The translations under genes were made by a program, and so were the position numbers. The notes under the pieces were generated by a model. The model had not been told where the DNA came from, ran no database searches, and saw only the letters and a list, made by a program, of their open reading frames with translations. Below, piece after piece: positions 9,736-51,032 of a stretch of 64,000 nucleotides of DNA; within the stretch, counting starts at the first letter, position 1, and every line of letters begins with the position of its first letter. Location: contig NZ_CP025512.1 of NCBI RefSeq assembly GCF_003491345.1, forward strand, positions 186,001 through 250,000. The letters are read 5' to 3'. The DNA comes from Neorhizobium sp. SOG26 (GTDB lineage: Bacteria > Pseudomonadota > Alphaproteobacteria > Rhizobiales > Rhizobiaceae).

Positions 9736-12144
9736 ATGCGGTTCTCGCTCATCTTACTCACTGCCTTGGGCATTGCCGCCATGGGGCTCTACGCGCTGAA
9801 AAGCAGCGAGACCGTGGATCTTGGCCTCATCACAAGCTCGATTTCTCCGGGCGGACCAAGTGATTCGGCCGTCGAAGAGCCGACCGCCGCAGAAGCGACC
9901 ACGATCGAGGATGGAAGTGCCCCTGAACTGACCGCGGCAGAACATGAGCCAAAGACGCCGGTCGAAAAGACCGAGCGGATGGTGTCGCAGCTCATTTATC
10001 CCAACCGGCAGCCGCAGCTGTCGGCCGCCGCCAAGCCCGACCCGGCCGCACTTGTGGTCGCGCAGTCTGCGCCATCGCTGCAAAAGCCGCCCTTCGATGC
10101 CGACGAGCCCGCCACCGTTGCCCAGGTCAATCCGCAGACCGTAATCACTGTCCCGTCGACGACACGCGGGAATGAGGAGCCGGTGGTGGATGAAAGCGCA
10201 CTGCGCTACTTCGCGGCGCGTGGCGACACCGCCCGCCTGCAGGCGGAAATCTCGAGGCTTCGTACCCTTTACCCGAACTGGACACCGCCGGCCGATCCGC
10301 TGGCCGTGCGGGTCAATGCCGACCGCCAGCTCGAGGAGATGTGGGCGCTTTACGCGCAATCGCGTTATGCCGACGTGCGCAAGGCGATCGCCGACCGGCA
10401 GGCGACGGAGCAGGGGTGGCAGCCGCCGGCCGATCTCCTTGACCGCTTGAAGCTTGCCGAAGCACGCGCCAGCCTCGTCGCCGCATCCGATGCCAAGAAC
10501 CATGAAGCCGTGCTGCGCACCGCGGCAGAAAACCCGAGCCTGCTCACCTGCAGCGAAGTGGATGTCTTGTGGCGGGTGGCGGAAAGCTTTGCCCAGACCG
10601 ACAAGAAGGGCCGCGCCCGCGACGCCTACGCCTATGTCCTCGACAATTGCGACAATGCTTCGGAGCGTTTCGCGACGCTCCAGAAGGCGGCCGAGCTTTT
10701 GCCGATCGACATGCTGGACGACCTCCTCTCAAAGGAGCGCACACCGACGGGTGGCCAGCCGGAATTCGAGCCGCTGCGTGACGATATCGCCCGCCGCCTG
10801 GTCGGCCAGGGCAATAGCGACGAAAAGCTGGTCGTGCCGGAAAAGTACCTGACGCGGCTTGAGCGCGTGGCCGAAGCCAATGGCCTCGCCTCCGATGCGC
10901 TGCTGCTCGGCTGGTATTACTACAGGCGCGAAAACCTCGGCGCTGCCGAGCGCTGGTTCCGGCGTGCCTTCGCCAAGGAAGAAACCGCGTCTGCCGCCGA
11001 AGGGCTGGCGCTCACGCTTATTGCGCAGAAATCGCCGGTCGAGGCCGAGAGCGTGCTTTACCGCTGGCGCGATTCCTCGCCGGGCTCGAAGCAGGCCTAT
11101 CTTGCCGCTGTTGCGAACCTGCTCGCGCTCGATCCGCCGCCTGTCCTGCAGCAGGAGGTCCTGCAGCGGATGGCGCCGGTGGTGATTGCCGAGCGTGGCG
11201 TCAATGCTGCCCAGCAGTTCGGCTGGTATGCGCGCGCCATGCAGCAGTTGGAGACTGCCGCTGAATGGTTCTCGGCAGCCTTGTCCTGGCGGGCAGATGA
11301 CGAGCCATCGGCTTACGGGCTGGCGCTTACCCGCAACGATCTCGGCGACGAGGCGGCTGTAGCGCAGATCCAGCGCAACTGGGCTGGACGGTCCGAGCGG
11401 ATCGCCCGGCTTGGCGAACCGGAAGAAGAAACGGAGGCCCGTCGCCGCGCCGCCCGCGCGAACCCGGCCGATCGCCAGAACCAGACGCCAGCGGCGAATG
11501 CCGAAGCCACGCCGACCCCCGCCCAGCAGGTGCGCCGGACGCAGCCTGTTTCGCGTTCCGAGACGGTGGTCGTAGAGACAAAGCCGGTGCAGACAACGCG
11601 CCGCGTAAACCGGGTGCAGGTCCAGACGACAACCCGCCGCGGCCAATGCTCTACCACGCTCGACGCACGGCAACTGTCACCGGATGCCGCACTTGCAAGA
11701 GGCTGGTGCCTGATGGACCTGAACCGGCCGATGGAGGCCGTGCAGGCCTTTGACGCGGCCTATGCCAGCACTTCCGCCGACACCCGCTCGGATGCCGCCT
11801 ATGGCAAGAGCCTCGCCTACCTGCGCGTTGGGCTGACCGACAAGGCAGCGGTTGCCGCCGCCGATGTCGGGCAGACGAACCGCCGCGCCGTGGAACTCCA
11901 GACGGCGATCCTTGCCGACCGCGCCCTCAACGCCTTCAAGCGGGCCCGCTACCGCGAAACGCTGATTGCGCTCGACCAGCGCGCACAGATTGCGCCGGAG
12001 CAAGCCGACCTGATGGCGTTGCGGGGTTATGCGCATCTCAATCTGGGCCGTCTTGCGGATGCCAAGCGCATCTTCCAGGCGCTTGCGGACATCGGCAACA
12101 AGGACGGATTGCGCGGTCTTGCGGACATCGGTGCTCAATATTGA
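9736..12144 (+). CDS. TPR-repeat protein of the cellulose locus
   Basis: An 802-residue protein with one N-terminal membrane/signal segment (SLILLTALGIAAMGLYAL), a Thr/Glu/Pro-rich linker, and two blocks of tetratricopeptide-like helical repeats (about residues 150-560 and 660-800). A Gln/Thr/Arg-rich spacer (about 570-640) separates the blocks. It resembles the TPR part of BcsC-type cellulose export scaffolds but has no C-terminal beta-barrel domain. It is divergent from bcsN, sharing its promoter region. I infer a periplasmic scaffold for cellulose assembly. ATG 9736 is preferred over the upstream in-frame TTG at 9667. Confidence 0.75.
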   Translation: MRFSLILLTALGIAAMGLYALKSSETVDLGLITSSISPGGPSDSAVEEPTAAEATTIEDGSAPELTAAEHEPKTPVEKTERMVSQLIYPNRQPQLSAAAKPDPAALVVAQSAPSLQKPPFDADEPATVAQVNPQTVITVPSTTRGNEEPVVDESALRYFAARGDTARLQAEISRLRTLYPNWTPPADPLAVRVNADRQLEEMWALYAQSRYADVRKAIADRQATEQGWQPPADLLDRLKLAEARASLVAASDAKNHEAVLRTAAENPSLLTCSEVDVLWRVAESFAQTDKKGRARDAYAYVLDNCDNASERFATLQKAAELLPIDMLDDLLSKERTPTGGQPEFEPLRDDIARRLVGQGNSDEKLVVPEKYLTRLERVAEANGLASDALLLGWYYYRRENLGAAERWFRRAFAKEETASAAEGLALTLIAQKSPVEAESVLYRWRDSSPGSKQAYLAAVANLLALDPPPVLQQEVLQRMAPVVIAERGVNAAQQFGWYARAMQQLETAAEWFSAALSWRADDEPSAYGLALTRNDLGDEAAVAQIQRNWAGRSERIARLGEPEEETEARRRAARANPADRQNQTPAANAEATPTPAQQVRRTQPVSRSETVVVETKPVQTTRRVNRVQVQTTTRRGQCSTTLDARQLSPDAALARGWCLMDLNRPMEAVQAFDAAYASTSADTRSDAAYGKSLAYLRVGLTDKAAVAAADVGQTNRRAVELQTAILADRALNAFKRARYRETLIALDQRAQIAPEQADLMALRGYAHLNLGRLADAKRIFQALADIGNKDGLRGLADIGAQY

Positions 12145-39059: not shown

Positions 39060-39143
39060 ATGGCACACGGACAAGATCCTGGTGTTGACCTTCGTTCGCG
39101 CCGGGGCGTATCGAGGGCGATGTCCACCATGGTCCTGATTTGA
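39060..39143 (+). CDS. Possible 27-residue leader ORF before fliP
   Basis: ATG at 39060 opens 27 codons (starting MAHGQDPGVDL) whose TGA overlaps the fliP ATG (TGATG, 39141-39145). fliP has no clear ribosome-binding site of its own, so coupling through this ORF is conceivable. No ribosome-binding site is evident for the small ORF either, so it may be fortuitous. Confidence 0.2.
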   Translation: MAHGQDPGVDLRSRRGVSRAMSTMVLI

Positions 39144-39880
39144 TGATTCGGCTGATCTTTGCCCTTGTCGCCTTTGCGTTCCTGCCAGATCTGGCGGCGG
39201 CGCAGCAGTCGCCGGCCGATCTTCTGAACCTGCCGGTCGATGGATCTGCAGCGGCCTGGATCATCCGGACCTTCGGTCTTCTGACCGTCCTTTCGGTGGC
39301 GCCCGGCATCCTGATCATGGTCACGAGCTTTCCGCGCTTCGTAATCGCCTTCTCCATCCTGCGCTCCGGCATGGGCCTGGCCTCGGCGCCTTCCAACCTG
39401 ATCCTCATCTCGATGGCGCTGTTCATGACCTTCTATGTCATGTCGCCAACCTTAGACCGGGCCTGGAACGAAGGCGTGCAACCGCTGCTGCAGAACCAGA
39501 TCACGGAAGCGGAAGCCGTGCAGCGGATCGCCGAGCCGTTCCGCGGTTTCATGTCGGCCAACACCCGCGACCGCGATCTCCAGCTCTTTGTGGAGATTGC
39601 CCGCGAGCGCAACCAGTCGGTCGGCACGCCGGAAGCGATCGATTACCGGGTGCTGATCCCGGCCTTCATGCTGTCGGAAATCCGCCGCGGTTTCGAAATC
39701 GGCTTCCTGATCATCCTGCCGTTCCTGGTGATCGACATGATCGTCGCCGCCATCACCATGGCCATGGGTATGATGATGCTGCCGCCGACCTCGATCTCGC
39801 TGCCGTTCAAGATCCTGTTCTTCGTGCTGATCGACGGCTGGAACCTGCTCGTCGGAAGCCTGATCCGCTCGTTCGGGTAG
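39143..39880 (+). CDS. fliP: Flagellar export gate protein FliP
   Basis: A 245-residue export-gate membrane protein. A cleavable signal-like N-terminus (LIFALVAFAFLPDLAAA) is followed by several membrane helices including VAPGILIMVTSFPRFVIAFSIL and the conserved PTSISLPFKILFFVLIDGWNLL end. ATG 39143 is preferred over TTG 39140. It is the last gene before the sugar-transfer island. In Sinorhizobium the flagellin genes follow fliP directly. Confidence 0.95.
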   Translation: MIRLIFALVAFAFLPDLAAAQQSPADLLNLPVDGSAAAWIIRTFGLLTVLSVAPGILIMVTSFPRFVIAFSILRSGMGLASAPSNLILISMALFMTFYVMSPTLDRAWNEGVQPLLQNQITEAEAVQRIAEPFRGFMSANTRDRDLQLFVEIARERNQSVGTPEAIDYRVLIPAFMLSEIRRGFEIGFLIILPFLVIDMIVAAITMAMGMMMLPPTSISLPFKILFFVLIDGWNLLVGSLIRSFG

Positions 39881-39980: not shown

Positions 39981-41546
39981 ATGAACAGTTCCGTGACAAA
40001 AACACTGTTGCCCGAGGTCCTCAACCTGGTCGGAGCCTCGACGTTTCTGCCTGACGCATTCAACATTGGACGCGTGCCATCGCAGGAAGCAGATGTTACC
40101 TTCGACATCAGCAACTTCAAGCCAGGCGGAATGCTTTCGGTCGACAGCCGACGGTTTGGCTTCGTAGAGCTGACGGGCGGGAGCTTCCGCCGCATCGTGG
40201 CGCGCAATGTCTTGCAGCAGCTGAGCGACTTCGATGCGGCGATCGAAGCATGCCTCTACCTGCTTCAGGATGGGGGCACGCTGGAAGTGACGGTGCCATA
40301 CGACCTCTCGCTTGAAGCCTGGGGTGACCCGTCCAATCGGCGCGCCTTCAATGAGCTGACCTTCCAGATGCTCTGTGCGCGGATGGCGGAGGACATGGAC
40401 GCGGAGAGCCGTTTCGAACTCGCGGCCTTGAACTTCATCCCGAGCGCCTTTGGCGTTGAACTTAGCAAGACTGGCATGGCGGCCGAACAGGTCGCGCGTC
40501 ATCCGCGCGCCATCGCGGGTCTGTCGGCAGTGCTCCAGAAGGTCTCCACGTCCGAAGAACTGGATTCGGAGCCGGAGCAGGCTGCTGCAGCGCCGGTCCG
40601 ACCGAACCCCGTAGCGGCGCCAGTCGCTGCTCATCCCGCACAGCCAATACGTGACCTGCGCCCATTTGCAGGCGGCTGGGAGAACCACAAAGACAAGCAT
40701 TGCATCTGGGTTGTCTCGCCCCCGGGCTACGTCCATTCGCAGGCCTTCGCGGAAGTCGCCTTCACGCTGCAATGTGCCTTCGAGGAAATGGGCGGGTCCG
40801 CTCCCGTTGTGACCTCGATGGAGGAGTTCAACGGACGCATCCCGATCGTATTCGGCGCTACCTTGTTGCCGGCCGAGGTCGCACGGCTGCTTCCGGCGGA
40901 ATCGGTCATCGTGAACCTGGAACAGGTGCTGCCCGGCAGCGAGTGGATGAACAACCTGTATATCAGCATCATGCAGGAATTCCCGACCGTCGACTATTCC
41001 GAGCGCAACCGCAAGGAGATCGCCCGGCGTGGCCTCGATCATGTGCGGACGCTCGAGATCGGCTACAGCGATCGCCTGACGCGGATCGAGCATGCACCGG
41101 TGAAGGACATCGACGTCCTGTTCTACGGCTCGATGACCCAGCGACGCGGTGAGCTTCTTGACGCGATGCGTGCTCAGGGCCTCAACGTGGTCCACCTGTT
41201 CGGGATCTATGGCGAGGAGCGCGATGCGGCGATCGGTCGGTCCAAGGTCGTCCTTAATGTCCAGCATTGCGAAAACGGCGTGTTCGAAATCGTGCGGGTG
41301 TCATACCTGCTCGCCAACCGCATCTGCGTCCTGACGGAAGGGCGTCCCGGCGATCCGGAGATCGCGCCTTATCGGGGCGGGCTTGAAGTCGCGGCCTACG
41401 ACGAACTCGTGAGCCGCTGTGTTGAACTCGTGGCCGATGAAGAGCGCCGGCAGAAGCTTGCGGAAGAAGGCTTCCGTCTCATGTCGAGCCGGCGTCAGTC
41501 GATGTTCCTGCGATCGCTGATCGACTCCGTGGCCTACGCGAACTGA
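39981..41546 (+). CDS. Glycosyltransferase with degenerate methyltransferase-like N-terminal domain
   Basis: A 521-residue soluble protein. Residues about 10-150 look like a class I methyltransferase: LNLVGASTFLPDAFNIG sits where LNLGCG is expected, and RNVLQQLSDFDAAIEACLYLLQDGGTLEVTVPYD is the post-motif region. The Gly-x-Gly and the ribose-binding acid are absent, so it is probably not catalytic. A Pro/Ala linker (about 190-220) leads to a GT-B-type half with DVLFYGSMTQRRGELLDAM and ENGVFEIVRVSYLLANRICVLTEG. It is the first gene of the island between fliP and the flagellins. Activity is inferred, with sugar and acceptor unknown. Confidence 0.75.
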   Translation: MNSSVTKTLLPEVLNLVGASTFLPDAFNIGRVPSQEADVTFDISNFKPGGMLSVDSRRFGFVELTGGSFRRIVARNVLQQLSDFDAAIEACLYLLQDGGTLEVTVPYDLSLEAWGDPSNRRAFNELTFQMLCARMAEDMDAESRFELAALNFIPSAFGVELSKTGMAAEQVARHPRAIAGLSAVLQKVSTSEELDSEPEQAAAAPVRPNPVAAPVAAHPAQPIRDLRPFAGGWENHKDKHCIWVVSPPGYVHSQAFAEVAFTLQCAFEEMGGSAPVVTSMEEFNGRIPIVFGATLLPAEVARLLPAESVIVNLEQVLPGSEWMNNLYISIMQEFPTVDYSERNRKEIARRGLDHVRTLEIGYSDRLTRIEHAPVKDIDVLFYGSMTQRRGELLDAMRAQGLNVVHLFGIYGEERDAAIGRSKVVLNVQHCENGVFEIVRVSYLLANRICVLTEGRPGDPEIAPYRGGLEVAAYDELVSRCVELVADEERRQKLAEEGFRLMSSRRQSMFLRSLIDSVAYAN

Positions 41547-41570
41547 GTGCGGACTGATTTCCAACAGCTA

Positions 41571-41593
41571 TGCGCAAGCTGTCTATGCAAGAA
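41571..41593 (+). promoter_or_regulatory. Degenerate flagellar-regulon box upstream of the methyltransferase
   Basis: TGCGCAAG followed by a 9-base spacer and CAAGAA; only the left half fits the pattern. It is 37 bases before the gene. Low confidence. Confidence 0.2.
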
Positions 41594-41629
41594 AATGCTA
41601 ATTGACTTGATCTGAATAGGATAACCATC

Positions 41630-42397
41630 ATGAACGCAATAGTCTCCCTGGAGGCAGGAGCTCTACCGCAACAGCATCCCGGCACTCACTACAATGAGGT
41701 GATCGCAAGGCTATCCGCGCTTCGCAACGTCAAGCGCTATCTCGAAGTCGGCGTTCAGCGTGGGATTACGTTCAGCGGCGTGAAGGCCGAGATTGCCTTT
41801 GGCGTCGATCCGGAATTCATCGTCAACGCGAACGTGGCGGCCAACAAGAAGCAGACGCGCCTGTTCCAGATGACCAGTGATGAGTTCTTCCGGGACGTTG
41901 ACGTCGTAGCAGAATTTGGCGGTCATCCGGACATGTGCTTCCTGGACGGGATGCACCTCTTCGAATACCTGCTGCGCGACTTCTACAACACCGAACGGAT
42001 CAGCAGCCGCAACACGCTGATCTGCCTCCATGACTGCCTGCCGCTGAACCACATCATGGCACACCGGAGCATGGACTTCGCGAACCAGAACAGCGCTCAT
42101 ACGGCCTATCCCGGCTGGTGGACCGGTGACGTCTGGAAGATCGTGCCGATCCTGCAGAAATATCGTCCGGACCTTCGCGTGATGTTGGTCGATGCGCCGC
42201 CGACCGGTCTTGTCTTCGTGACCAACCTCGACCCGCAGAACACGGTGCTGCGCGACAACTACCTGGATATAGTGCGCGATTACTTCACGCAGCCGAACGA
42301 CCAGGAAGCCATCGTCAGTCACTACCGTAGCAACAACGTCTTCCAGACGGACGCGGTTTTGGCCGACATGAACCACAGCCTGTTCTTCAACACGTAA
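41630..42397 (+). CDS. Class I SAM-dependent methyltransferase
   Basis: A 255-residue soluble methyltransferase. Motif I RYLEVGVQRGITFSGV, an acidic ribose contact (FGVDPEF), and an aromatic/acidic segment MCFLDGMHLFEYLLRDFYN, then LICLHDCLPLNHIM. The HDCLP and DGMHLFEY motifs recall Methyltransf_24 proteins acting on sugars or polysaccharides. No membrane helix. It converges with the inverted flagellin gene, with a bidirectional terminator between. I infer methylation of a surface or flagellin glycan; the substrate is unproven. Confidence 0.8.
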   Translation: MNAIVSLEAGALPQQHPGTHYNEVIARLSALRNVKRYLEVGVQRGITFSGVKAEIAFGVDPEFIVNANVAANKKQTRLFQMTSDEFFRDVDVVAEFGGHPDMCFLDGMHLFEYLLRDFYNTERISSRNTLICLHDCLPLNHIMAHRSMDFANQNSAHTAYPGWWTGDVWKIVPILQKYRPDLRVMLVDAPPTGLVFVTNLDPQNTVLRDNYLDIVRDYFTQPNDQEAIVSHYRSNNVFQTDAVLADMNHSLFFNT

Positions 42398-42431
42398 GGC
42401 TGCTTCGGTCGATTAGATCGTCACACAAACG

Positions 42432-42461
42432 AAAATAGCGCCCGCGAGGGCGCTATTTTTT
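42432..42461. terminator. Bidirectional terminator between the methyltransferase and inverted flagellin genes
   Basis: A perfect 12-bp stem (AAAATAGCGCCC and its complement, 42432-42443 and 42448-42459) with a GCGA loop, flanked by an A-run on one side and a T-run on the other. It can stop both converging transcripts. Confidence 0.9.
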
Positions 42462-42477
42462 GCTTTGGCGCTAGGGA

Positions 42478-43428
42478 TTAGCGGAAGAGCGTCAGGATGT
42501 TCTGCGCTTCGCTGTTGGCGATCGACAGGGCCTGTACACCGAGCTGCTGCTGCGTCTGCAGAGCCTTGAGACGGGTCGACTCTTCGTTCATGTCGGCGTC
42601 AACCAGCTTGCCAACACCCGTCTGGATCGAGTCAGACAGATCTTCAACAAAGGCCTTCTGCAGTTCGATGCGCTTGTTGACGGCACCAATGTCGGCAGCG
42701 GCGTTGGTCATTTCCTTCAGCGCAGACTCGGTCGCAGCCAGGGAGATGGAAAGCAGGTCGGCACCCATCGTGCTGATGTCGAGGCTGATGACGCTGCTTG
42801 TCGCCGTAACGGACGCGGTTGCACCGGCCGAATTGGTATAGGTGACCGCATGGTGCTTGGTCAGGATGCCTGCATTCGTTAGGTTGGTGGTACCGGTCTG
42901 GGCGATCAGCGACGAGCTGCCGGTGTTGTATTCCAGCGTCGTCAGGCTGATGGCGCCGTTGTTGTCGCGGTTGAACGAACCAACGATGGCCTGGGTGCCG
43001 ACAGTGTTGTTGCCGGTCTGGTGGTAGACCCAGTTCTGGCCCGAGAAGGCAGCAGACTTGGCGATCGAGATCAGCTGGTCCTGCAGCTGGTCGATTTCCT
43101 TCTGGACCTTGGACTTGTCAACGCCCGGCTGGGAAGCCGCAGTGATCTTCTGCTTGATCTCGTCAACAACGGAAATGGAATTTTCGATTGCAGTATAGGC
43201 GACGTCGGTGATGGCAGCGCCGAGGCCGAGAGCGTCCTTGACGGTGCTCAGTGCCTTGTTGTCCGAACGCATGGTGGTTGCGATCGACCAGTAAGCGGCG
43301 TTGTCGGATGCGTTTTCGACCTTGTAACCGGAGGAGATCCTGCTTTGCGTCCGTTCCATGTCCTGACCAATGGTCCGGAGCGTGGAAAGGGCGGCCATGG
43401 CCGAATTATTAGTAAGAATACTTGTCAT
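42478..43428 (-). CDS. Flagellin (inverted paralog)
   Basis: A 316-residue flagellin with the conserved N-terminal (TLRTIGQDMERTQSRISSG, ENASDNAAYWSIATTMRSD) and C-terminal (VDADMNEESTRLKALQTQQ, ANSEAQNILTLFR) D0/D1 helices. The central domain is Ser/Thr/Asn-rich, as expected for a surface-exposed O-glycan acceptor. It is very similar to FlaA at 48.9 kb (about 80% by eye), but lies on the opposite strand. Its leader carries the same two-hairpin motif as flaA and flaB. The gene splits the sugar-transfer island. Confidence 0.96.
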   Translation of the reverse strand: MTSILTNNSAMAALSTLRTIGQDMERTQSRISSGYKVENASDNAAYWSIATTMRSDNKALSTVKDALGLGAAITDVAYTAIENSISVVDEIKQKITAASQPGVDKSKVQKEIDQLQDQLISIAKSAAFSGQNWVYHQTGNNTVGTQAIVGSFNRDNNGAISLTTLEYNTGSSSLIAQTGTTNLTNAGILTKHHAVTYTNSAGATASVTATSSVISLDISTMGADLLSISLAATESALKEMTNAAADIGAVNKRIELQKAFVEDLSDSIQTGVGKLVDADMNEESTRLKALQTQQQLGVQALSIANSEAQNILTLFR

Positions 43429-43487
43429 GCGCAGTCCCTTCTTGAAAACGAATTACTGGTGGGACATGCCGGATTTACATACCGGCA
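43429..43487 (-). promoter_or_regulatory. Flagellin leader RNA motif (inverted flagellin)
   Basis: Read on the minus strand: hairpin 1 TGCCGG-N9-CCGGCA (43467-43487), then the shared 12-mer CCGGCATGTCCC (43461-43472). Hairpin 2 pairs GTCCC (43461-43465) with GGGAC (43434-43438), which is part of the ribosome-binding site AAGGGA. The start ATG follows. Same layout as the flaA and flaB leaders. Confidence 0.65.
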
Positions 43488-43540
43488 GTGACTATAGGCA
43501 TCATGCCTTGCTGGTAAATTTCTAACCGCGCCTCGTCATC

Positions 43541-43560
43541 TATGGTTAATATGAACCATA
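43541..43560. promoter_or_regulatory. Inverted repeat in the divergent flagellin/GT41 promoter region
   Basis: TATGGTT-N6-AACCATA (43541-43547 and 43554-43560), a perfect 7-bp inverted repeat in an AT-rich stretch upstream of the inverted flagellin. TTAACCAT also occurs before flaA (48705-48712). Candidate operator or flagellin promoter element. Confidence 0.35.
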
Positions 43561-43650
43561 ATTGTTGATAAATATTTAAGCATAAATTTTAAGTTGCGTT
43601 GACTGAAGCAACGTCTATCGCAGCAGCCAAAGCGAATAGAAGACCAGCCT

Positions 43651-43673
43651 GCCACAAGTTTTAGCCGGTAAAG
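43651..43673 (+). promoter_or_regulatory. Flagellar-regulon box upstream of the GT41 transferase
   Basis: GCCACAAG-N9-GTAAAG, matching the CRCRCAAG-N9-NTA pattern except for the second base. It is 45 bases before the GTG start chosen for the transferase and too close (15 bases) to the ATG at 43688. Confidence 0.5.
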
Positions 43674-43717
43674 CACTGCCTGACTGCATGTCGTCATGCC
43701 GAAACCGGAGTCCGATA

Positions 43718-45634
43718 GTGTCCCAGAACCCTCTCTTCAGCGCAGCCAAGAAAAGCTTCAGGCGGGGTGAATACACCGAAACGCTGACTGTCCTGAACAA
43801 GCTCTTGGACATGCAGGCCGATGCCGCGACCTATGGCCTTCTGGCCAAGACGCTGGCATGCCTGGATATGAAGCGGGAAGCAGCGCACGCCTACCAGCTC
43901 GCGGCGGAAGCCGGCGGCAAGGAAGAGTTCGCCTATCGCGAAGAGGCGATGAAGCTCTGGTACGAGCTGAACGAGTTTGACAATGCGCTTGCCGTCGGGC
44001 GTCCGCTTGCCGAAAAGGCTCAGCGGGACGCAAACCTTGCCTTCTACATCGCCTCCTGCTTCCTGCACAAAAAGGACAAGGACATCGTCCGCGTCTACAT
44101 CAAGGTGCTGGCGGAAAGCGACAACTCCAAGCACAACAGCCTGGCGGTCCTGCTTCTGACCAACATGCCGGAAGACGCGCGAGACCGGCAGATCATGCGC
44201 CTCCTGCTGAAGCGTTATCCGCAGAGCACCTTCCTCATCCAGTCCTACCTCGTGACCTGCCGCGAAGTGAACGACTACGACGGCATGGCGAAATATCAGC
44301 CTGTACTTGATCGTCTTCTCGAGATGGGCGATCTCAAGTTCCTCAAGCACGAGTCGCCATTCTATAACCTGCACTGGTTGCCGGACGAGGCGATCAACAA
44401 GATTGTCGCGCATGACCCGGCAGCGGTACCGGAGAGCCACACACGTGAGCGTCGCCAGATGCCCCACACGTGGGGCAAGCGCATTCGTGTCGGTTATGTG
44501 TCGAGCGACTTCTGGTCAGCACATGCGACCATGAAGCTGGTTCGCGGCGTGCTGGAGCATCACGACCGCGAGAAGTTCGACATCACCTTGTTCTGCTACA
44601 CCGACAAGGTCTACGTCGAGCCGGACGAGATCCGCGAGAAATGGGGCAAGATCGTCAACATCCGGGACATGTCGATCGAAGAGGCGGCGCAGACCATTCG
44701 CGACCACGAAATCGACATCCTCGTCGACCTGAAGGGCCAGACCAGGTTCAGCCGCTCGACGATCCTCAACCACAAGGCAGCCCCGATCCACGTCGCATGG
44801 CTCGGCTTCCCCGGAACGACCGTCAACATCGATCTCGACTACGTGATCGGTGACCACTACGTGCTGCCGGATGAGTCAAAGCCGCATTATTGGGAAAAGT
44901 TCGTCCGTCTGCCGGAATGCTACCAGCCGAACGACCCGATATACCGCCCGAAGATGATCCCGCTGACCCGCAAGGATGCGAACCTGCCGGAAGACATGTT
45001 CGTCTTCGCCTCGTTGAATGCGAGCCGCAAGATCTCGACCGAGAACATCGAGCTGTGGATCCGGATCCTCAATGCGACGCCTGACAGCATGATCTGGGTC
45101 CTGTGCACAAGCAACGAAGCACACGACAATATCATCAAGAAGATCACGAGCGCTGGCATCAACCGGAAGCGCATCAAGTTCACGCCGCTCGTCAGCTACG
45201 AAGAGCATGTCTCCCGTATGGGACTGGCGGACCTCGGCCTCGATACCTTCCCGGTCAACGGCCATACGACCACCTCCGAGCAGCTTTGGGCAAATCTCCC
45301 GGTGCTGACGAAGAAAGGCAACCACTTCGCGTCGCGCGTCAGCGAAAGCCTGCTGAATGCTATCGGCTTGCCGGAACTGGTTGCCGAGTCCGAAGAAGCC
45401 TACTTCCAGAGAGCGGTCGAGCTTTACGAGAACCGCGAGTTGATCAAGAGCTACAAGGAGCGCCTGGTCGAGAACAAGCGCATCAAGCCGCTGTTCGACC
45501 ATGACCGCTTCCGTCAGCATCTCGAGAAAGCCTACGAGATGATGGTCGATCGTGCGCGCCAGAACCTGGAGCCTGACCACCTCGACGTCCCGGTCCTGCC
45601 GCCTCGGACTGAACCATTTTTTGTGTCTGAGTAG
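43718..45634 (+). CDS. TPR/GT41 O-linked glycosyltransferase, candidate flagellin glycosyltransferase
   Basis: A 638-residue cytoplasmic protein with N-terminal TPR-type helices (about 1-230) fused to a GT41 (O-GlcNAc transferase/SPINDLY-like) domain. Matching segments: RIRVGYVSSDF, HEIDILVDLKGQTR, PIHVAWLGFPGTTVNIDLDYVIGD, FVFASLNASRKIS and the UDP-sugar/acceptor region VNGHTTTSEQLWANLPVLTKKG. Start chosen as GTG 43718 with GGAG eight bases before it; an ATG at 43688 exists. TPR-plus-transferase proteins such as Caulobacter FlmG glycosylate flagellin, so that role is likely. It is divergent from a flagellin gene and carries the regulon box. Confidence 0.85.
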   Translation: MSQNPLFSAAKKSFRRGEYTETLTVLNKLLDMQADAATYGLLAKTLACLDMKREAAHAYQLAAEAGGKEEFAYREEAMKLWYELNEFDNALAVGRPLAEKAQRDANLAFYIASCFLHKKDKDIVRVYIKVLAESDNSKHNSLAVLLLTNMPEDARDRQIMRLLLKRYPQSTFLIQSYLVTCREVNDYDGMAKYQPVLDRLLEMGDLKFLKHESPFYNLHWLPDEAINKIVAHDPAAVPESHTRERRQMPHTWGKRIRVGYVSSDFWSAHATMKLVRGVLEHHDREKFDITLFCYTDKVYVEPDEIREKWGKIVNIRDMSIEEAAQTIRDHEIDILVDLKGQTRFSRSTILNHKAAPIHVAWLGFPGTTVNIDLDYVIGDHYVLPDESKPHYWEKFVRLPECYQPNDPIYRPKMIPLTRKDANLPEDMFVFASLNASRKISTENIELWIRILNATPDSMIWVLCTSNEAHDNIIKKITSAGINRKRIKFTPLVSYEEHVSRMGLADLGLDTFPVNGHTTTSEQLWANLPVLTKKGNHFASRVSESLLNAIGLPELVAESEEAYFQRAVELYENRELIKSYKERLVENKRIKPLFDHDRFRQHLEKAYEMMVDRARQNLEPDHLDVPVLPPRTEPFFVSE

Positions 45635-45727
45635 TCAGGAATTTTCAGCAGTCATCAGGGCTGCTCAACACAATGGCGCTTGCGCGGATTCATGGATCGG
45701 GTCTGCGCTCGCCGAAAGAGAACAAGA

Positions 45728-46342
45728 ATGGCAAAGACTTTCGTGCAGATTGGGGCGGGGGCAGGTGACCGTGACCCCCGCGCCAACTTCCGTGACGGCT
45801 TCAGCGAGTTCGTAAAAGGCTTGCCGCAGACCGACGTCGCAAATGTTGTTCTGGTTGAGCCGAACCCGGTGAACATCACGAAGCTGCAGGAGTGCTGGGT
45901 CGATTATCCCCAGGCTGCCATCTTCCAGATGGGCGTGGTGCCGGACAATCTCTCCGACACGTCTCTGACCTTTTATTGGGCTCCCGAAGACGGTCCGCAT
46001 TTCCAGGTGTTTTCATGCAGCTTGGAGCATGTGAAGAAACACTACCCGCAGAGTGACCTGAAGAGCTTGTCGGTGAAGGTCATGACGCTCAGCGAGTTCC
46101 TGAAGACCACACTTGGCAATCGCCCGGTCGAATATCTCGCGCTCGACATCGAAGGTCTTGATGCGGAGATCATTCTCAACACCGACTGGACCCAGCTTAA
46201 CGTCAAGAACATCTCCTTCGAAATCCTCCATCTGCATGACCGCAAGCCGGCCGTCCTGCAGCACCTGGTCGATTGCGGATACCGCGAAGCGGGCTTGGGC
46301 TTCGACACTCACGGCTGGGACCTTCTCTACTCCCGCGTCTGA
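45728..46342 (+). CDS. FkbM-family methyltransferase
   Basis: A 204-residue soluble FkbM-type methyltransferase. SAM motif FVQIGAGAGDRDPRANF, acid VVLVEPNPVNITKL, and the FkbM signature LALDIEGLDAEIIL. Start ATG 45728 follows a purine-rich AAAGAGAA; the frame is open to 45680. FkbM enzymes O-methylate sugars or polyketides. It sits 93 bases after the GT41 transferase and probably shares its transcript. I infer O-methylation of a flagellin glycan. Confidence 0.85.
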   Translation: MAKTFVQIGAGAGDRDPRANFRDGFSEFVKGLPQTDVANVVLVEPNPVNITKLQECWVDYPQAAIFQMGVVPDNLSDTSLTFYWAPEDGPHFQVFSCSLEHVKKHYPQSDLKSLSVKVMTLSEFLKTTLGNRPVEYLALDIEGLDAEIILNTDWTQLNVKNISFEILHLHDRKPAVLQHLVDCGYREAGLGFDTHGWDLLYSRV

Positions 46343-46385
46343 GGATGCGGTAGCTGTTCGGGCATGGGCTCTGCGGGGACAATCC

Positions 46386-46408
46386 CGCACAAGTTTCGTG
46401 CGATAACT
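46386..46408 (+). promoter_or_regulatory. Flagellar-regulon box upstream of the GT61 transferase
   Basis: CGCACAAG-N9-ATAACT, a full match to the CRCRCAAG-N9-NTA pattern, 37 bases before the start codon. Core identical to the fliF, DUF1217 and FliH-like boxes. Confidence 0.6.
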
Positions 46409-46445
46409 AAATTACACGTTCACAACGCGCTGAAACGAATCATAG

Positions 46446-47504
46446 ATGCAATCAATCTGCATTGATAAGGTCGCGGTCCCTGCATGGAACCCTGCCGTAC
46501 ATGTCTCTGACGATGTCGGGGAAGATGAGTCCCTCCGGAACTTTCTGAAGACCGCACCGCTAGCGTATGAGACGCCTGAGATCGTTTTCTCCGACCTGGG
46601 CACGACGGTCGTAACGGGCAGCGCCTTCACCGTGAAATCGGAAAAAATGGGGGTCGTCCAGGACTCCTTTTATCTGATCCCACAGCTGTCGTGGGAACAG
46701 ACGCTGCGGGTTGATGCCACGGTGTCGCGCTATGACGGCGATATGCCGGCGCTCGTCATCGGCAACATGGCGTCGGATAATTATTACCATTGGAACTTCC
46801 AGTGCCTGGCGAGCCTCCTGCTGTTCCGGCAGTTCGCCCCCTGGAAAGAGTTCGTGACGGTGATGCCCGCGTTGAACAGTTGGCAGTCACAAACGCTGTC
46901 GACGATCGACTTCGAAGGTGAGCGTTTCGAACTCGACAAAACGGACATCTTCTTCTGCGGCAAAGGCTTTCGGAGCAATCTGACTGGTGGCGAGTTCGCA
47001 TTCGCGCCGCATGTCCTCGTGACGTCGCAGTTCGAAGAGATCGCGCAAGCGGTGGACGTGCCAAGCGAGCGCGGGCGAAAGATCTATGCATCCCGCCTGG
47101 ATGCGGGTTCGACGCGCCGCATCCTCAACGAGGACGCCGTGTGCGAGCTCATGGCCTCGTATGGCTTCGAGATCATCACTCCGGGCAAGCTGACGGTCGA
47201 AGAGCAGATCACCACTTTCCGGGATGCCGACGTTATCGTAGGCGCCCACGGTGCCGGCATGACCAACCTGCTGTTCTCGCAGGCGTCCAAGGGGCCGCGT
47301 GTAGTAGAATTGTTCCAGTCGCACTACGTCAATGCGTGTTACGCCCGCATCTGCCAGGCCAAGGGCTTGGACTATACGGCGGTCGTCAGCCCCGGTGGGC
47401 TCCTTCTCGATGAGAATGAGCCGCGGCCGACCAGTGTCTCCGTCAATGATTTGGTATGCCTCGCCGATCTTGGCGTGATCGAGTCGGTGATCGCCAAGCT
47501 CTAG
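46446..47504 (+). CDS. Glycosyltransferase family 61 (DUF563) protein
   Basis: A 352-residue soluble protein with the GT61 hallmarks: [40 protein letters not shown] and [21 protein letters not shown]61 enzymes include xylosyl- and N-acetylglucosaminyltransferases, so it could use the UDP-xylose made by the next gene. It has its own regulon box and leads uxs by 28 bases. Acceptor unproven; flagellin glycan is inferred from context. Confidence 0.85.
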
Positions 47505-47532
47505 GGAAATCAACACCACTTGTGGGAAACGA

Positions 47533-48552
47533 ATGATGTCTGAACGGATCTTGGTCACAGGTGGTGCCGGCTTCATTGGATCGCATCTTTGCGAGGTCCT
47601 GCTGGACGCAGGCCACGAAGTCCTGTGCGTTGACAACTACTTTACCGGACGACGCGAGAACATCTTCCACCTGATGGACAACAAGCGCTTCGAGATGATG
47701 CGCCATGATGTGTCTCAGCCGCTGCATGTCGAGGCGGATCGCATCTACAATCTTGCCTGTCCGGCATCCCCTGTTCATTACCAGTTCGACCCGGTGCAGA
47801 CCGTGAAGACGAGCGTCATGGGTGCCATCAATGTCCTGGGGCTTGCACATCGGCTGCGGGTCCCGGTTCTCCAGGCATCGACCTCGGAAGTGTACGGTGA
47901 CCCGCACATCCATCCGCAGATCGAGTCTTATTGGGGCAATGTGAACCCGATCGGACCGCGCTCCTGCTACGACGAAGGCAAGCGTTGCGCTGAAACCCTG
48001 TTCTTCGACTACCACCGCCAGCACAAGGTTGATATCAAGGTCATCCGTATCTTCAACACATATGGTCCGCGGATGCACCGCAACGATGGACGGGTTGTCT
48101 CGAACTTCATCGTCCAGGCGCTCGAAGGCAAGGACATCACCATCTACGGGAACGGTCAGCAGACCCGCTCCTTCTGTTTCGTCGACGATCTCGTTGACGG
48201 AATGGTCCGGATGATGGCGACCGAACATGGCTTCACCGGACCGGTAAACCTCGGCAATCCGGTCGAGCAAACCATCGCGTCGCTCGCCGAGACAATCATC
48301 CGTCTCGTCGGATCGAAGTCGAAGATCGTGTACCGACCGATTCCGACGGACGACCCGATGAAGCGCAAGCCCGATATCGAGTTGGCGCAAACCAAGCTGC
48401 AATGGACGCCAGCCGTCAAGATCGAGCACGGATTGCTGCGCACCATCGACTACTTTGAGAAGCTGTTGTCCGGCGTATCTGCCGACATTCACGTGCCCGT
48501 GCTGCGCGACCTGCACGCCAGCATGATGACACCGGTCGCACGCGCATCCTGA
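47533..48552 (+). CDS. UDP-glucuronate decarboxylase (UDP-xylose synthase)
   Basis: A 339-residue NAD-dependent short-chain dehydrogenase. Rossmann motif [18 protein letters not shown], a substrate loop [21 protein letters not shown], and catalytic Tyr/Lys in [11 protein letters not shown]. The LACPASP and YDEGKRCAE segments are typical of UXS enzymes, which turn UDP-glucuronate into UDP-xylose. ATG 47533 or 47536 both fit. As last gene of the island it likely supplies the donor sugar. Some bifunctional or related epimerases share the motifs, but UXS is best. Confidence 0.88.
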
Positions 48553-48796: not shown

Positions 48797-48852
48797 CCGG
48801 GCCTAAACCGGAATGTCCCCATTTATTACCCAAACTGTAGGGGCCATCTATC
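48797..48852 (+). promoter_or_regulatory. Flagellin leader RNA motif (flaA)
   Basis: Hairpin 1 CCGG-N7-CCGG (48797-48811), the shared 12-mer CCGGAATGTCCC (48808-48819), and hairpin 2 pairing GTCCC (48815-48819) with GGGGC (48840-48844), which is the ribosome-binding site AGGGG. Nine bases separate it from the ATG. Same layout as the flaB and inverted-flagellin leaders. Confidence 0.65.
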
Positions 48853-49806
48853 ATGACCAGCATTCTGACGAACAACGCAGCTATGGCTGCACTTTCCACC
48901 CTCCGCACCATCAGCAGCGGCATGGAAACCACGCAGAAGCGGGTGTCTTCCGGCTTTCGTATTGAAAATGCCTCCGACAACGCTGCCTATTGGTCGATCG
49001 CAACCACCATGCGTTCGGACAACAAGGCACTGAACACCGTCAAGGACGCTCTCGGCCTTGGCGCTGCAACGACCGACGTTGCTTACACCGCTCTCGAAAA
49101 CGCCATCTCGGTTGTTGACGAAATCAAGTCGAAGATCACCGCTGCTTCTGAGCCGGGCGTCGACAAGAGCAAGGTTCAGAAGGAAATCGACCAGCTGCAG
49201 GACCAGCTGATGTCGATTGCCAAGTCTGCTTCCTTCTCAGGCCAGAACTGGGTCTACCACCAGACCGGCACCAACACTGCGAGCACGCAGGCCATCGTTG
49301 GTTCGTTCAACCGTGACAACTCCGGCAACATCAGCCTCACGACGCTGGAATACAACACCGGCAGCTCGTCGCTGATCGCCCAGACCGGCACCACCCACTT
49401 GACGACGGCTGGTATCCTGACGAAGTACCACACCGTTTCCTACACCAACTCGCTCGGTGCGACGGTTGCTGCTGTTCAGGCCACGAGCAGCGTGATCAGC
49501 TTCGACATCACCAGCATGGGCGCGGACCTTCTGTCGCTGACGCTGGCTGCGACTGAGTCTGCCCTGAAGGACATGACCAACGCCGCTGCTGACGTCGGTG
49601 CCCTTAACAAGCGCATCGAACTGCAGAAGAACTTCGTCGAAGACCTGACCGACTCCATCGAGGCCGGCGTTGGCAAGCTGGTTGACGCCGACATGAACGA
49701 AGAGTCGACCCGCCTCAAGGCTCTGCAGACGCAGCAGCAGCTTGGTATCCAGGCACTCTCGATCGCCAACAGCTCTTCGGAAACCTTGCTCACGCTGTTC
49801 CGTTAA
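48853..49806 (+). CDS. flaA: Flagellin FlaA
   Basis: A 317-residue flagellin, MTSILTNNAAMAALSTLRTI at the N-terminus and VDADMNEESTRLKALQTQQ near the C-terminus. The central part (about 140-240) is rich in Ser, Thr and Gly, as expected for an exposed and possibly O-glycosylated surface. It is a near copy of the inverted flagellin at 42.5 kb. A terminator follows. Named flaA by position after fliP. Confidence 0.95.
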   Translation: MTSILTNNAAMAALSTLRTISSGMETTQKRVSSGFRIENASDNAAYWSIATTMRSDNKALNTVKDALGLGAATTDVAYTALENAISVVDEIKSKITAASEPGVDKSKVQKEIDQLQDQLMSIAKSASFSGQNWVYHQTGTNTASTQAIVGSFNRDNSGNISLTTLEYNTGSSSLIAQTGTTHLTTAGILTKYHTVSYTNSLGATVAAVQATSSVISFDITSMGADLLSLTLAATESALKDMTNAAADVGALNKRIELQKNFVEDLTDSIEAGVGKLVDADMNEESTRLKALQTQQQLGIQALSIANSSSETLLTLFR

Positions 49807-49832
49807 TCGGCATCAAAACACTCCGCTCAAGC

Positions 49833-49859
49833 ATAAAGGCCGCCTCGTGCGGCCTTTAT
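49833..49859 (+). terminator. Terminator after flaA
   Basis: A perfect 11-bp inverted repeat (ATAAAGGCCGC at 49833-49843 and its complement at 49849-49859) with a 5-base loop, 27 bases past the stop. The T-run is short. Confidence 0.7.
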
Positions 49860-49879
49860 CATTTCTGCGCCGAAAGCTT

Positions 49880-49902
49880 CGCACAGGCTCTATGGTTTTA
49901 AG
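49880..49902 (+). promoter_or_regulatory. Degenerate flagellar-regulon box upstream of flaB
   Basis: CGCACAGG-N9-TTTAAG, one base off the left half of the pattern, with TA displaced by one position. 158 bases before flaB, so a long leader is implied. Low confidence. Confidence 0.3.
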
Positions 49903-50013
49903 TGCCCCATGGATTGGTTGGGGCAGCTTACGTTCAGCGACCCTCAGCCATGTATGACGCCCACCGGTAAGCCTGCTCCGAGCAGGTCCGGAAGCATGAT
50001 GCTGTGGAGCGTA

Positions 50014-50060
50014 ACCGGCGAAGCTCCGGTATGTCCCGTCATCCTTCAGGGGCAGTGTTT
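50014..50060 (+). promoter_or_regulatory. Flagellin leader RNA motif (flaB)
   Basis: Hairpin 1 ACCGG-N7-CCGGT (50014-50030), the shared 12-mer CCGGTATGTCCC (50026-50037), and hairpin 2 pairing TGTCCC (50032-50037) with GGGGCA (50049-50054, one G-U pair). That arm is the ribosome-binding site. Six paired bases make this the most stable of the three leaders. Confidence 0.65.
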
Positions 50061-51032
50061 ATGGCCAGTATTATTACCAATGTAGGCGCGCTTTCCGCGC
50101 TCCAGACGCTTCGGCAGACGAACAAGGACATGGAAACGACGCAGAGCCGGATCTCGTCCGGTTACCGTGTCGAAACGGCAGCCGATAACGCTGCATACTG
50201 GTCGATTGCGACCACCATGCGCTCTGACCGTAAGGCCCTTTCCACCGTCGAGGATGCTCTCGGGCTTGGCGCCGCCAAGGTTGACACGGCTTACACCGGT
50301 CTCGAAGCTGCGATCGCCGTCGTTGACGAAATCAAGTCCAAAATCACCGCCGCTTCCGAACCGGGCGTCGACAAGACGAAGATCGACAAGGAACTGTCCC
50401 AGCTGAAGAGCCAGCTCGCGTCGATCGCCGAGTCTGCATCCTTCTCCGGTGAAAACTGGCTTTACAACACCGCCACCACGGGTGCCGGGACCAAGGACAT
50501 CGTGGCGTCCTTCAACCGTGCGCCTGATGGCGGCATCTCCCTGACGACGCTCAAATTTGATGCGTCTGCGTCGGTGTTGATCGACAAGTCCAATGCAAGC
50601 CGAGGCTTGTTGACGCGCGGCTGGCCGGTCAGCCAGCCGAATGGCGCAGGAACGACGGCCACCGTCAGCTACTACCTCGTCAACGCAAACTCCAACGTGG
50701 CGGCAACCGGCGGGCTCGAAATCAAGCTGACGACGACGACCTCGGCGGATTCGCTCGCGGGCATGTTGCTCGCGGTGGAAACCATGCTGCAGCGGCTGAC
50801 CGATTCAGCCTCGACGCTCGGCGCCATCACCAAGCGCATCGACATGCAGGAAAGCTTCGTCGCCTCCCTGACGGACGTGATCGACAAGGGCATCGGCCGT
50901 CTCGTTGATGCGGACATGAACGAGGAGTCGACACGGCTCAAGGCACTGCAGACACAGCAGCAGCTTGGCATCCAGGCGCTGCAGATCGCCAACACCAACG
51001 CCGAGAACATCCTCCAGCTGTTCCGGCAGTAA
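50061..51032 (+). CDS. flaB: Flagellin FlaB
   Basis: A 323-residue flagellin, MASIITNVGALSALQTLRQT at the N-terminus and VDADMNEESTRLKALQTQQ near the C-terminus. The central region differs from the other two flagellins. ATG 50061 is chosen because it matches flagellin N-termini and follows the AGGGG site; the frame is open to 50004. The filament is probably a mix of FlaA, FlaB and the inverted flagellin. Confidence 0.95.
   Translation: MASIITNVGALSALQTLRQTNKDMETTQSRISSGYRVETAADNAAYWSIATTMRSDRKALSTVEDALGLGAAKVDTAYTGLEAAIAVVDEIKSKITAASEPGVDKTKIDKELSQLKSQLASIAESASFSGENWLYNTATTGAGTKDIVASFNRAPDGGISLTTLKFDASASVLIDKSNASRGLLTRGWPVSQPNGAGTTATVSYYLVNANSNVAATGGLEIKLTTTTSADSLAGMLLAVETMLQRLTDSASTLGAITKRIDMQESFVASLTDVIDKGIGRLVDADMNEESTRLKALQTQQQLGIQALQIANTNAENILQLFRQ

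Follow-up and report, generated by a model that had tools for sequence, protein, structure and literature searches.

A candidate flagellin-modification island with a TPR-GT41 transferase and variable sugar cassettes in Neorhizobium sp. SOG26

Why should genes for sugar and methyl transfer lie between fliP and the flagellin genes of a rhizobial flagellar locus? The question is raised by a 64-kb stretch of the Neorhizobium sp. SOG26 genome (4.56 Mb in three contigs), positions 186001–250000 of contig 1, which is called the window throughout. It contains a transferase of glycosyltransferase family 41 with an N-terminal tetratricopeptide-repeat region (TPR-GT41, or GT41) and five further genes for sugar or methyl transfer or sugar-donor synthesis. 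An earlier note on this DNA had proposed a flagellin-modification system, and our comparison of related genomes supports that proposal by the constant placement of GT41, by the gene junction that it interrupts and by accompanying cassettes that encode no polytopic membrane proteins. We consider it probable that the island modifies flagellin, and our best reading is FlmG-like O-glycosylation that would use no nulosonic acids and draw on swappable donor-sugar cassettes. A product that includes xylose is a tentative proposal, with a likelihood a little below even.

The fliP–flagellin junction and the island

All 57 genomes of the genus contain fliP and 42 contain a full-length GT41 gene, positioned after fliP and ahead of the last flagellin in every one of the 42 loci. 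In 38 of these it points against fliP, upstream of the flagellins; in the other four (the window and loci L124–L126) a reversed flagellin comes first and is followed by GT41 in the direction of fliP. The next gene after fliP is a flagellin in 15 of the 15 genus genomes without a full-length GT41, two of which (L155 and L156) carry a different GT41 further along within the flagellin cluster. The same is true of 24 of 25 Rhizobiaceae loci without a fliP-adjacent GT41, the exception being L087, where a gene for a 209-residue protein follows fliP. Those 25 loci are the top of the fliP match list after exclusion of L093–L095, where other genes follow fliP and GT41 and flagellins stand together elsewhere. 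The comparison with related Rhizobiaceae suggested in the earlier note reveals both the conserved order that it had cited, with flagellins directly after fliP, and the insertion that it had described, since GT41 breaks an otherwise direct junction.

GT41 is also beside a flagellin or fliP in all 14 named relatives of a first scan, which are not independent because ten of them duplicate records counted among the genus loci. In the Rhizobium-type loci L017–L019 and L025–L031, GT41 stands alone between fliP and the flagellins (the contig ends at or before the flagellins in L018 and L028).

Gene order in the window is flgI-motE-flgH-fliL-fliP, then a 521-residue glycosyltransferase protein, a 255-residue O-methyltransferase, a reversed flagellin, TPR-GT41, an FkbM protein, a GT61 protein, a UDP-xylose synthase (UXS) and two flagellins (48853–51032), followed by a gene in the fliH position, motB and motC. 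Names of the flagellar flanking genes are assumed from the earlier note and from the known gene order. The seven features that this note had listed between fliP and flaA are all present at the coordinates that it gave, and the region reads as follows.

39143–39880, plus strand: fliP, left border of the island (94% identity to its best relative in clade C, defined below; gene order)
39981–41546, plus strand: 521-residue protein with a partial methyltransferase-like N-terminal half and a glycosyltransferase C-terminal half (PF13524)
41630–42397, plus strand: 255-residue class I S-adenosylmethionine-dependent O-methyltransferase, Methyltransf_24-like
42478–43428, minus strand: flagellin, inverted copy (PF00669, PF00700; inverted repeat with 48852–49808)
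43429–43717, no strand: divergent intergenic region between flagellin and GT41, partly kept in clade-A loci (13-locus alignment)
43718–45634, plus strand: TPR-GT41 protein glycosyltransferase (OGT/FlmG-like), predicted flagellin-modifying enzyme (PF13844)
45728–46342, plus strand: FkbM-family methyltransferase (PF05050, 48 bits; alternative start 45680)
46446–47504, plus strand: GT61 glycosyltransferase (PF04577, 79 bits)
47533–48552, plus strand: UXS (UDP-glucuronate decarboxylase; solved-structure match, TSE and YxxxK motifs)
48853–49806, plus strand: flagellin (flaA of the earlier note)
50061–51032, plus strand: flagellin, closing the block whose history conflicts with the flanks (50004 as alternative start)

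The reversed flagellin (42476–43429) and flaA (48852–49808) form inverted repeats of 83% identity, with arms of 612 and 335 nucleotides, that enclose the 5.4-kb GT41-FkbM-GT61-UXS segment. Recombination between them could flip this segment and restore the orientation of GT41 and flagellin that is usual in the relatives. The GC content of the island genes is 57–62% and that of the flanking genes 58–67%, a difference too indistinct to serve as a sign of foreign origin.

A second flagellin locus lies elsewhere on contig 1 (L008, 2466000–2485900). Its three flagellins are 83–89% like those of the island and are located downstream of molybdopterin-oxidoreductase-like and sirohaem-synthase-like genes; no glycosyltransferase was found among the four neighbouring genes scanned.

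The TPR-GT41 transferase and its history

The island GT41, the sole member of its family in the source genome, matches PF13844 with 226.2 bits against a cut-off of 25, which places it in glycosyltransferase family 41. We prefer the GTG start at 43718 over 43688 because it lines up with the N-termini of the relatives. By sequence and by fold, the best solved relatives are eukaryotic and Xanthomonas OGTs and SPINDLY. The AlphaFold model (mean predicted local distance difference test score, pLDDT, 77.6) has a helical, TPR-like N-terminal half with 12 consecutive helices at residues 15–212, and a Foldseek comparison with OGT gives an E-value of about 1e-22, a template-modelling (TM) score of about 0.5 and about 21% identity over the fold. 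The GT41 profile likewise matches designed TPR proteins over approximately positions 13–132; a Pfam scan of the protein gives no TPR model above cut-off.

Six residues are the same in all 53 GT41 sequences compared: H279, K448, D519, H526, T527 and T528, counted from the 43688 start. From our alignment and the OGT numbering, we take H279, K448, H526, T527 and T528 to correspond to OGT H498, K842, H920, T921 and T922. Together with the PF13844 match and the fold, these invariant positions indicate an OGT-like GT-B catalytic C-terminal half with a conserved active site. In a plasmid collection, matches to GT41 are short and confined to four records.

The history of this gene and of the adjacent flagellins conflicts with that of their flanks. 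The comparison rests on two groups of relatives, named after a first look at the data: clade C (L127–L142, L038 and L039) and clade A (L103–L114 and their twin records). In the upstream flank the best identities favor clade C over clade A, at 94 versus 89% for fliP and 92 versus 80% for flgH. The same holds downstream, where the clade-C values come from L038 and L039 only (65 versus 52% for the fliH-position gene, 74 versus 66% for motB). For GT41 the order is reversed, with 43% in clade C versus 62% in clade A, and the three flagellins reach 43, 43 and 47% in clade C versus 70, 70 and 76% in clade A, the last flagellin (50061–51032) accounting for the 47 and 76% values.

Trees agree with these identities. 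The flank tree nests the window in clade C, with Shimodaira–Hasegawa-like approximate likelihood-ratio (SH-aLRT) supports of 99 and 98, whereas the GT41 tree places it beside clade A (SH-aLRT 99). Approximately unbiased (AU) tests reject a grouping of window and clade C for GT41 (p 0.00013) and of window and clade A for the flanks (p 0.00046). In the flagellin tree all three window flagellins are far from clade C: the last is closest to clade A, and the other two are closest to copies in their own genome, then to those of the GT41-less loci L147 and L150, then to clade A. By these comparisons GT41 and the flagellins have a history unlike that of their surroundings, in the same direction for both, and because the AU tests reject agreement with the flanks we conclude that the two were probably exchanged.

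A paralogous GT41 in the genus pairs with proteins containing ALTTAQ repeats (PF20080), which in L021 reach 2231 residues with 86 matched repeats. Of 30 genus genomes bearing such repeats, 29 have the paralogue, the exception (G207) having three weak matches. In many cases no more than about 10 kb separates paralogue and repeats; among the matches listed, the repeats of G236 and G245 are elsewhere. The pairs are found inside the flagellin cluster in L155 (8534–15492) and L156 (3283–10618), beside it in L089 (578–8782), and at 1104–7799 in L021; L156 also carries a UDP-galactopyranose mutase. With their threonines, the repeats could serve as a dedicated acceptor. The term ALTTAQ is absent from the literature searched.

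Sugar cassettes and the other island enzymes

We compared 53 loci (the window, 40 genus loci and 12 others), grouping proteins into families at 30% identity over half of the longer protein. Extra genes, which fall into 52 protein families, are present in 39 of these loci, either at the fliP–flagellin site or in the fliL–fliP gap. Among the 42 genus loci with GT41, 30 have cassettes of two to nine genes, two hold solely a relative or fragment of the 521-residue protein, and ten have nothing extra or only a 153-residue protein. Four of the other cargo genes of the window are private to it among the 53 loci and the fifth, encoding the 521-residue protein, recurs in three others (L032, L111 and L122). 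The expectation that all six island genes would co-occur with flagellins is thus upheld for GT41, the only one kept in the compared loci; co-conservation of the six as a set is rejected. Sugar genes beside the flagellins vary between close relatives, as expected of a polymorphic flagellin glycosylation island of the Pseudomonas type, and since those adjacent to GT41 differ between species groups, the coat that they would specify probably varies as well.

Representatives of 48 of the 52 cargo families were scanned against Pfam, 11 of them having no match at all. The matches are to nucleotide-sugar synthesis (an epimerase of deoxythymidine diphosphate (dTDP)-sugars, dehydratases, nucleotidyltransferases and DegT aminotransferases), glycosyltransferases, acetyltransferases and methyltransferases; no flippase, polymerase, ATP-binding cassette (ABC) exporter or phosphoglycosyl transferase was found in these 48. 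When 219 cargo proteins from the 39 loci were scanned for hydropathy, 210 had no hydrophobic segment, eight had one and a single protein had two; the membrane protein FliP, the control, gives five. This near-absence of hydrophobic segments fits a cytoplasmic pathway that finishes on protein rather than the export of lipopolysaccharide or capsule.

Several cassettes have features of their own. In L127–L142 of clade C a six- to eight-gene dTDP-sugar cassette that includes C- and O-methyltransferases lies between fliL and fliP, its fliL-proximal end being variable. Seven loci without sugar cassettes (L115–L121) have a protein of 153–154 residues, without a Pfam match, between fliP and GT41. At 12098–12793 of L022, which has the same genes as L113, a PF21729 (IRX15/GXM) protein adjoins a GT2 protein in a flagellar cassette; we take this domain to be that of glucuronoxylan methyltransferases.

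The UXS of the window finds its best solved match in UDP-glucuronic acid decarboxylase 1 (4gll, presumably the human enzyme) with 405.9 bits and has the TSE and YxxxK motifs, which have catalytic roles; this similarity and the motifs identify it as a predicted UDP-xylose synthase. The one strong match to the nucleotide-sugar dehydrogenase family (460.7 bits), a gene elsewhere in the genome, could supply UDP-glucuronate. A separate glycan locus on contig 1 (L097, 1135000–1154900) encodes a second UXS, 55% identical to that of the island, with four glycosyltransferases, a 661-residue epimerase-domain protein and a methyltransferase.

A NeuB-type synthase for pseudaminic or legionaminic acid, searched for as PF03102, has no match anywhere in the genome, with Caulobacter positive in the same search. 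The earlier note had seen no such genes in the window; their absence extends to the whole genome, which therefore lacks the pseudaminic acid donor pathway expected of an FlmG system.

GT61 is a candidate for xylose transfer because its family includes plant xylosyltransferases; which enzyme adds which sugar is a matter that we infer. Its closest other proteins have 52–61% identity and Agrobacterium vitis proteins 40–43%, and partial matches only were found in four of the 56 other genus genomes.

The 521-residue protein, described in the earlier note as a two-domain glycosyltransferase, retains that description for its C-terminal half (PF13524, 25.2 bits against a cut-off of 25). Its N-terminal half is instead a partial methyltransferase-like match, to model positions 78–132 of 164 of PF13489 at 20.6 bits (cut-off 27), and because the match covers part of the model and falls below cut-off this half is probably degenerate. 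Relatives occur in 11 of 394 family genomes, the source genome included, at the flagellar islands named above and at non-flagellar loci.

For the 255-residue protein, the Methyltransf_24 score of 24.2 bits is slightly below the cut-off of 26.3, and most of its homologues among the matches listed carry PF13578. Its model (pLDDT 92) resembles PDB structures of cation-dependent O-methyltransferases, with E-values of about 1e-7 and TM scores of about 0.4–0.5; PDB sequence searches with this protein and with the 521-residue protein returned nothing useful. In genome G239 (L160), a 68% relative of the O-methyltransferase adjoins a 55% relative of the 521-residue protein at a non-flagellar locus.

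Alternative explanations and known systems

From these features a pathway can be proposed in which cytoplasmic flagellin would be bound by TPR-GT41 and receive its first sugar on serine or threonine. The GT61 protein, the GT1-type transferase, UXS and the two methyltransferases would then extend and methylate this sugar, the extension likely being xylose, and both steps would precede export of the flagellin subunit. Flagellin as acceptor, the O-linkage, the xylose extension and the methylation of the sugar are all inferred steps. It appears that the genus keeps one transferase and swaps the adjacent donor-sugar cassette, sometimes along with the flagellins. A broader version is conceivable, though we would put it slightly under an even chance: one conserved TPR-GT41, facing away from a flagellin gene in a divergent pair, would be the fixed anchor of a hypervariable site at which flagellin, transferase and cassette are traded as a block, with filament chemistry replaced wholesale, like O-antigens, under pressure from phages or plant receptors and with the transferase retuned away from nulosonic acids.

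Several observations weigh against flagellin modification by the island. Fifteen of the 57 genus genomes have flagellins but no full-length GT41, some of these flagellins being window-like (L147 and L150), so the modification is not generally essential. In the wider family, GT41 matches occur in 50 of 199 genomes and homologues are also non-flagellar: among 40 places, a subset of 117 listed, flagellins are found at only 13, one further place is fliP-adjacent at a contig end and 26 have neither. The relatives of the 521-residue protein and of the O-methyltransferase at non-flagellar loci imply that cargo is drawn from a general pool of glycan genes. An enrichment of serine and threonine, considered as a signature of modification, was rejected, with the central region of flagellins at 0.255 in GT41 loci versus 0.300 (159 versus 82 flagellins), a difference in the opposite direction. 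As a separate observation, many Rhizobiaceae have other GT41 homologues away from flagellar loci (L040–L064), some in multi-copy runs (G107:C21, G188:C8).

A rival explanation is that the island instead makes part of a surface polysaccharide (lipopolysaccharide, capsule or exopolysaccharide) and lies in the flagellar locus by chance or through shared regulation. Polysaccharide loci commonly contain GT61, FkbM, UXS and PF13524 transferases; two of the island genes have the non-flagellar relatives just described, and one cargo protein in another locus carries the capsule-synthesis domain PF05159. We regard this explanation as quite improbable, since none of the 219 cargo proteins exceeds two hydrophobic segments, the export and polymerization families are missing from the 48 scanned (with 11 lacking any Pfam match), the genome has a separate glycan locus with its own UXS and four glycosyltransferases, and characterized GT41 enzymes act on proteins. 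That GT41 alone puts a single sugar on flagellin while the other five genes act elsewhere is unlikely. In its favor, the enzyme stands alone in the Rhizobium-type loci, and the ten genus loci without a cassette suggest that it can work without local cargo. This account sits poorly with the cassettes at the junction or between fliL and fliP in 30 of 42 genus loci, with the two further loci whose sole extra gene is a relative or fragment of the 521-residue protein, and with the arrangement in the window, where GT41 is followed immediately, in its own direction, by three of the five cargo genes.

A third possibility is that GT41 acts on some protein besides flagellin as its target, in the way that the paralogue may act on the ALTTAQ-repeat proteins with which it is paired. 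The source genome has neither the paralogue nor an ALTTAQ-repeat protein as alternative acceptor, and flagellins are the constant neighbors of full-length GT41 in the genus. All 29 genus genomes that carry the paralogue also have the repeats, and three of the pairs are located within or next to flagellin clusters, but for the island enzyme we consider such a target very improbable.

Flagellin modification by the island, our preferred reading, has partial precedents. In the parts of the Caulobacter FlmG account covered here, flagellins are bound by the TPR part, the rest of the protein acts as the transferase and pseudaminic acid is the donor (PMC7591256). The island enzyme shares the N-terminal TPR and the OGT/GT-B-like C-terminal part, with one enzyme for several flagellins, and differs in that its genome lacks a NeuB-type synthase; those parts of the account describe no exchangeable sugar cassette beside the flagellin genes (PMC7591256).

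Excerpts on Pseudomonas aeruginosa a-type strains describe a polymorphic island at the flagellin gene and a two-stage glycan, a linking sugar with an optional variable extension (PMC3958885). A polymorphic sugar-gene island upstream of a flagellin gene is common to both (PMC3958885). Here the host group is another, the anchor is TPR-GT41, and the donor genes differ, with UDP-xylose synthase in the window and cassettes for dTDP-sugars, amino sugars and further types in relatives. Eukaryotic OGT, Xanthomonas OGT and SPINDLY share the fold of the island GT41 at the low identity given above.

Within the family, the available portion of a 2010 study reports Rhizobium leguminosarum flagellins that stain as glycoproteins and run at about 35 rather than 31 kDa; these are apparently glycosylated Rhizobiaceae flagellins, for which that portion names neither enzyme nor sugar (PMC2936354). 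GT41 is at the same spot in R. mesoamericanum (L019). Filaments of Agrobacterium H13-3 are stated to be glycosylated, data not shown, in a 2021 text that, in the section covered, calls the role an unexplored question (PMC8310070). Among the literature matches listed, which mostly exclude subscription papers, no title or abstract concerns the present island.

Most likely, then, this is a flagellin-glycosylation island of a known general kind, with an unusual anchor (a GT41 without nulosonic acids) and a private xylose/methyl cassette. It offers a specific gene at a fixed place for rhizobial flagellin glycosylation and predicts that the sugars depend on lineage, with the 15 sister species that have no full-length GT41 as natural controls. 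If this is correct, the genus would contain a GT41 able to modify flagellin with no nulosonic acid as donor, and its swappable cassettes would form a natural series for relating flagellar sugars to phage, plant immunity and swimming.

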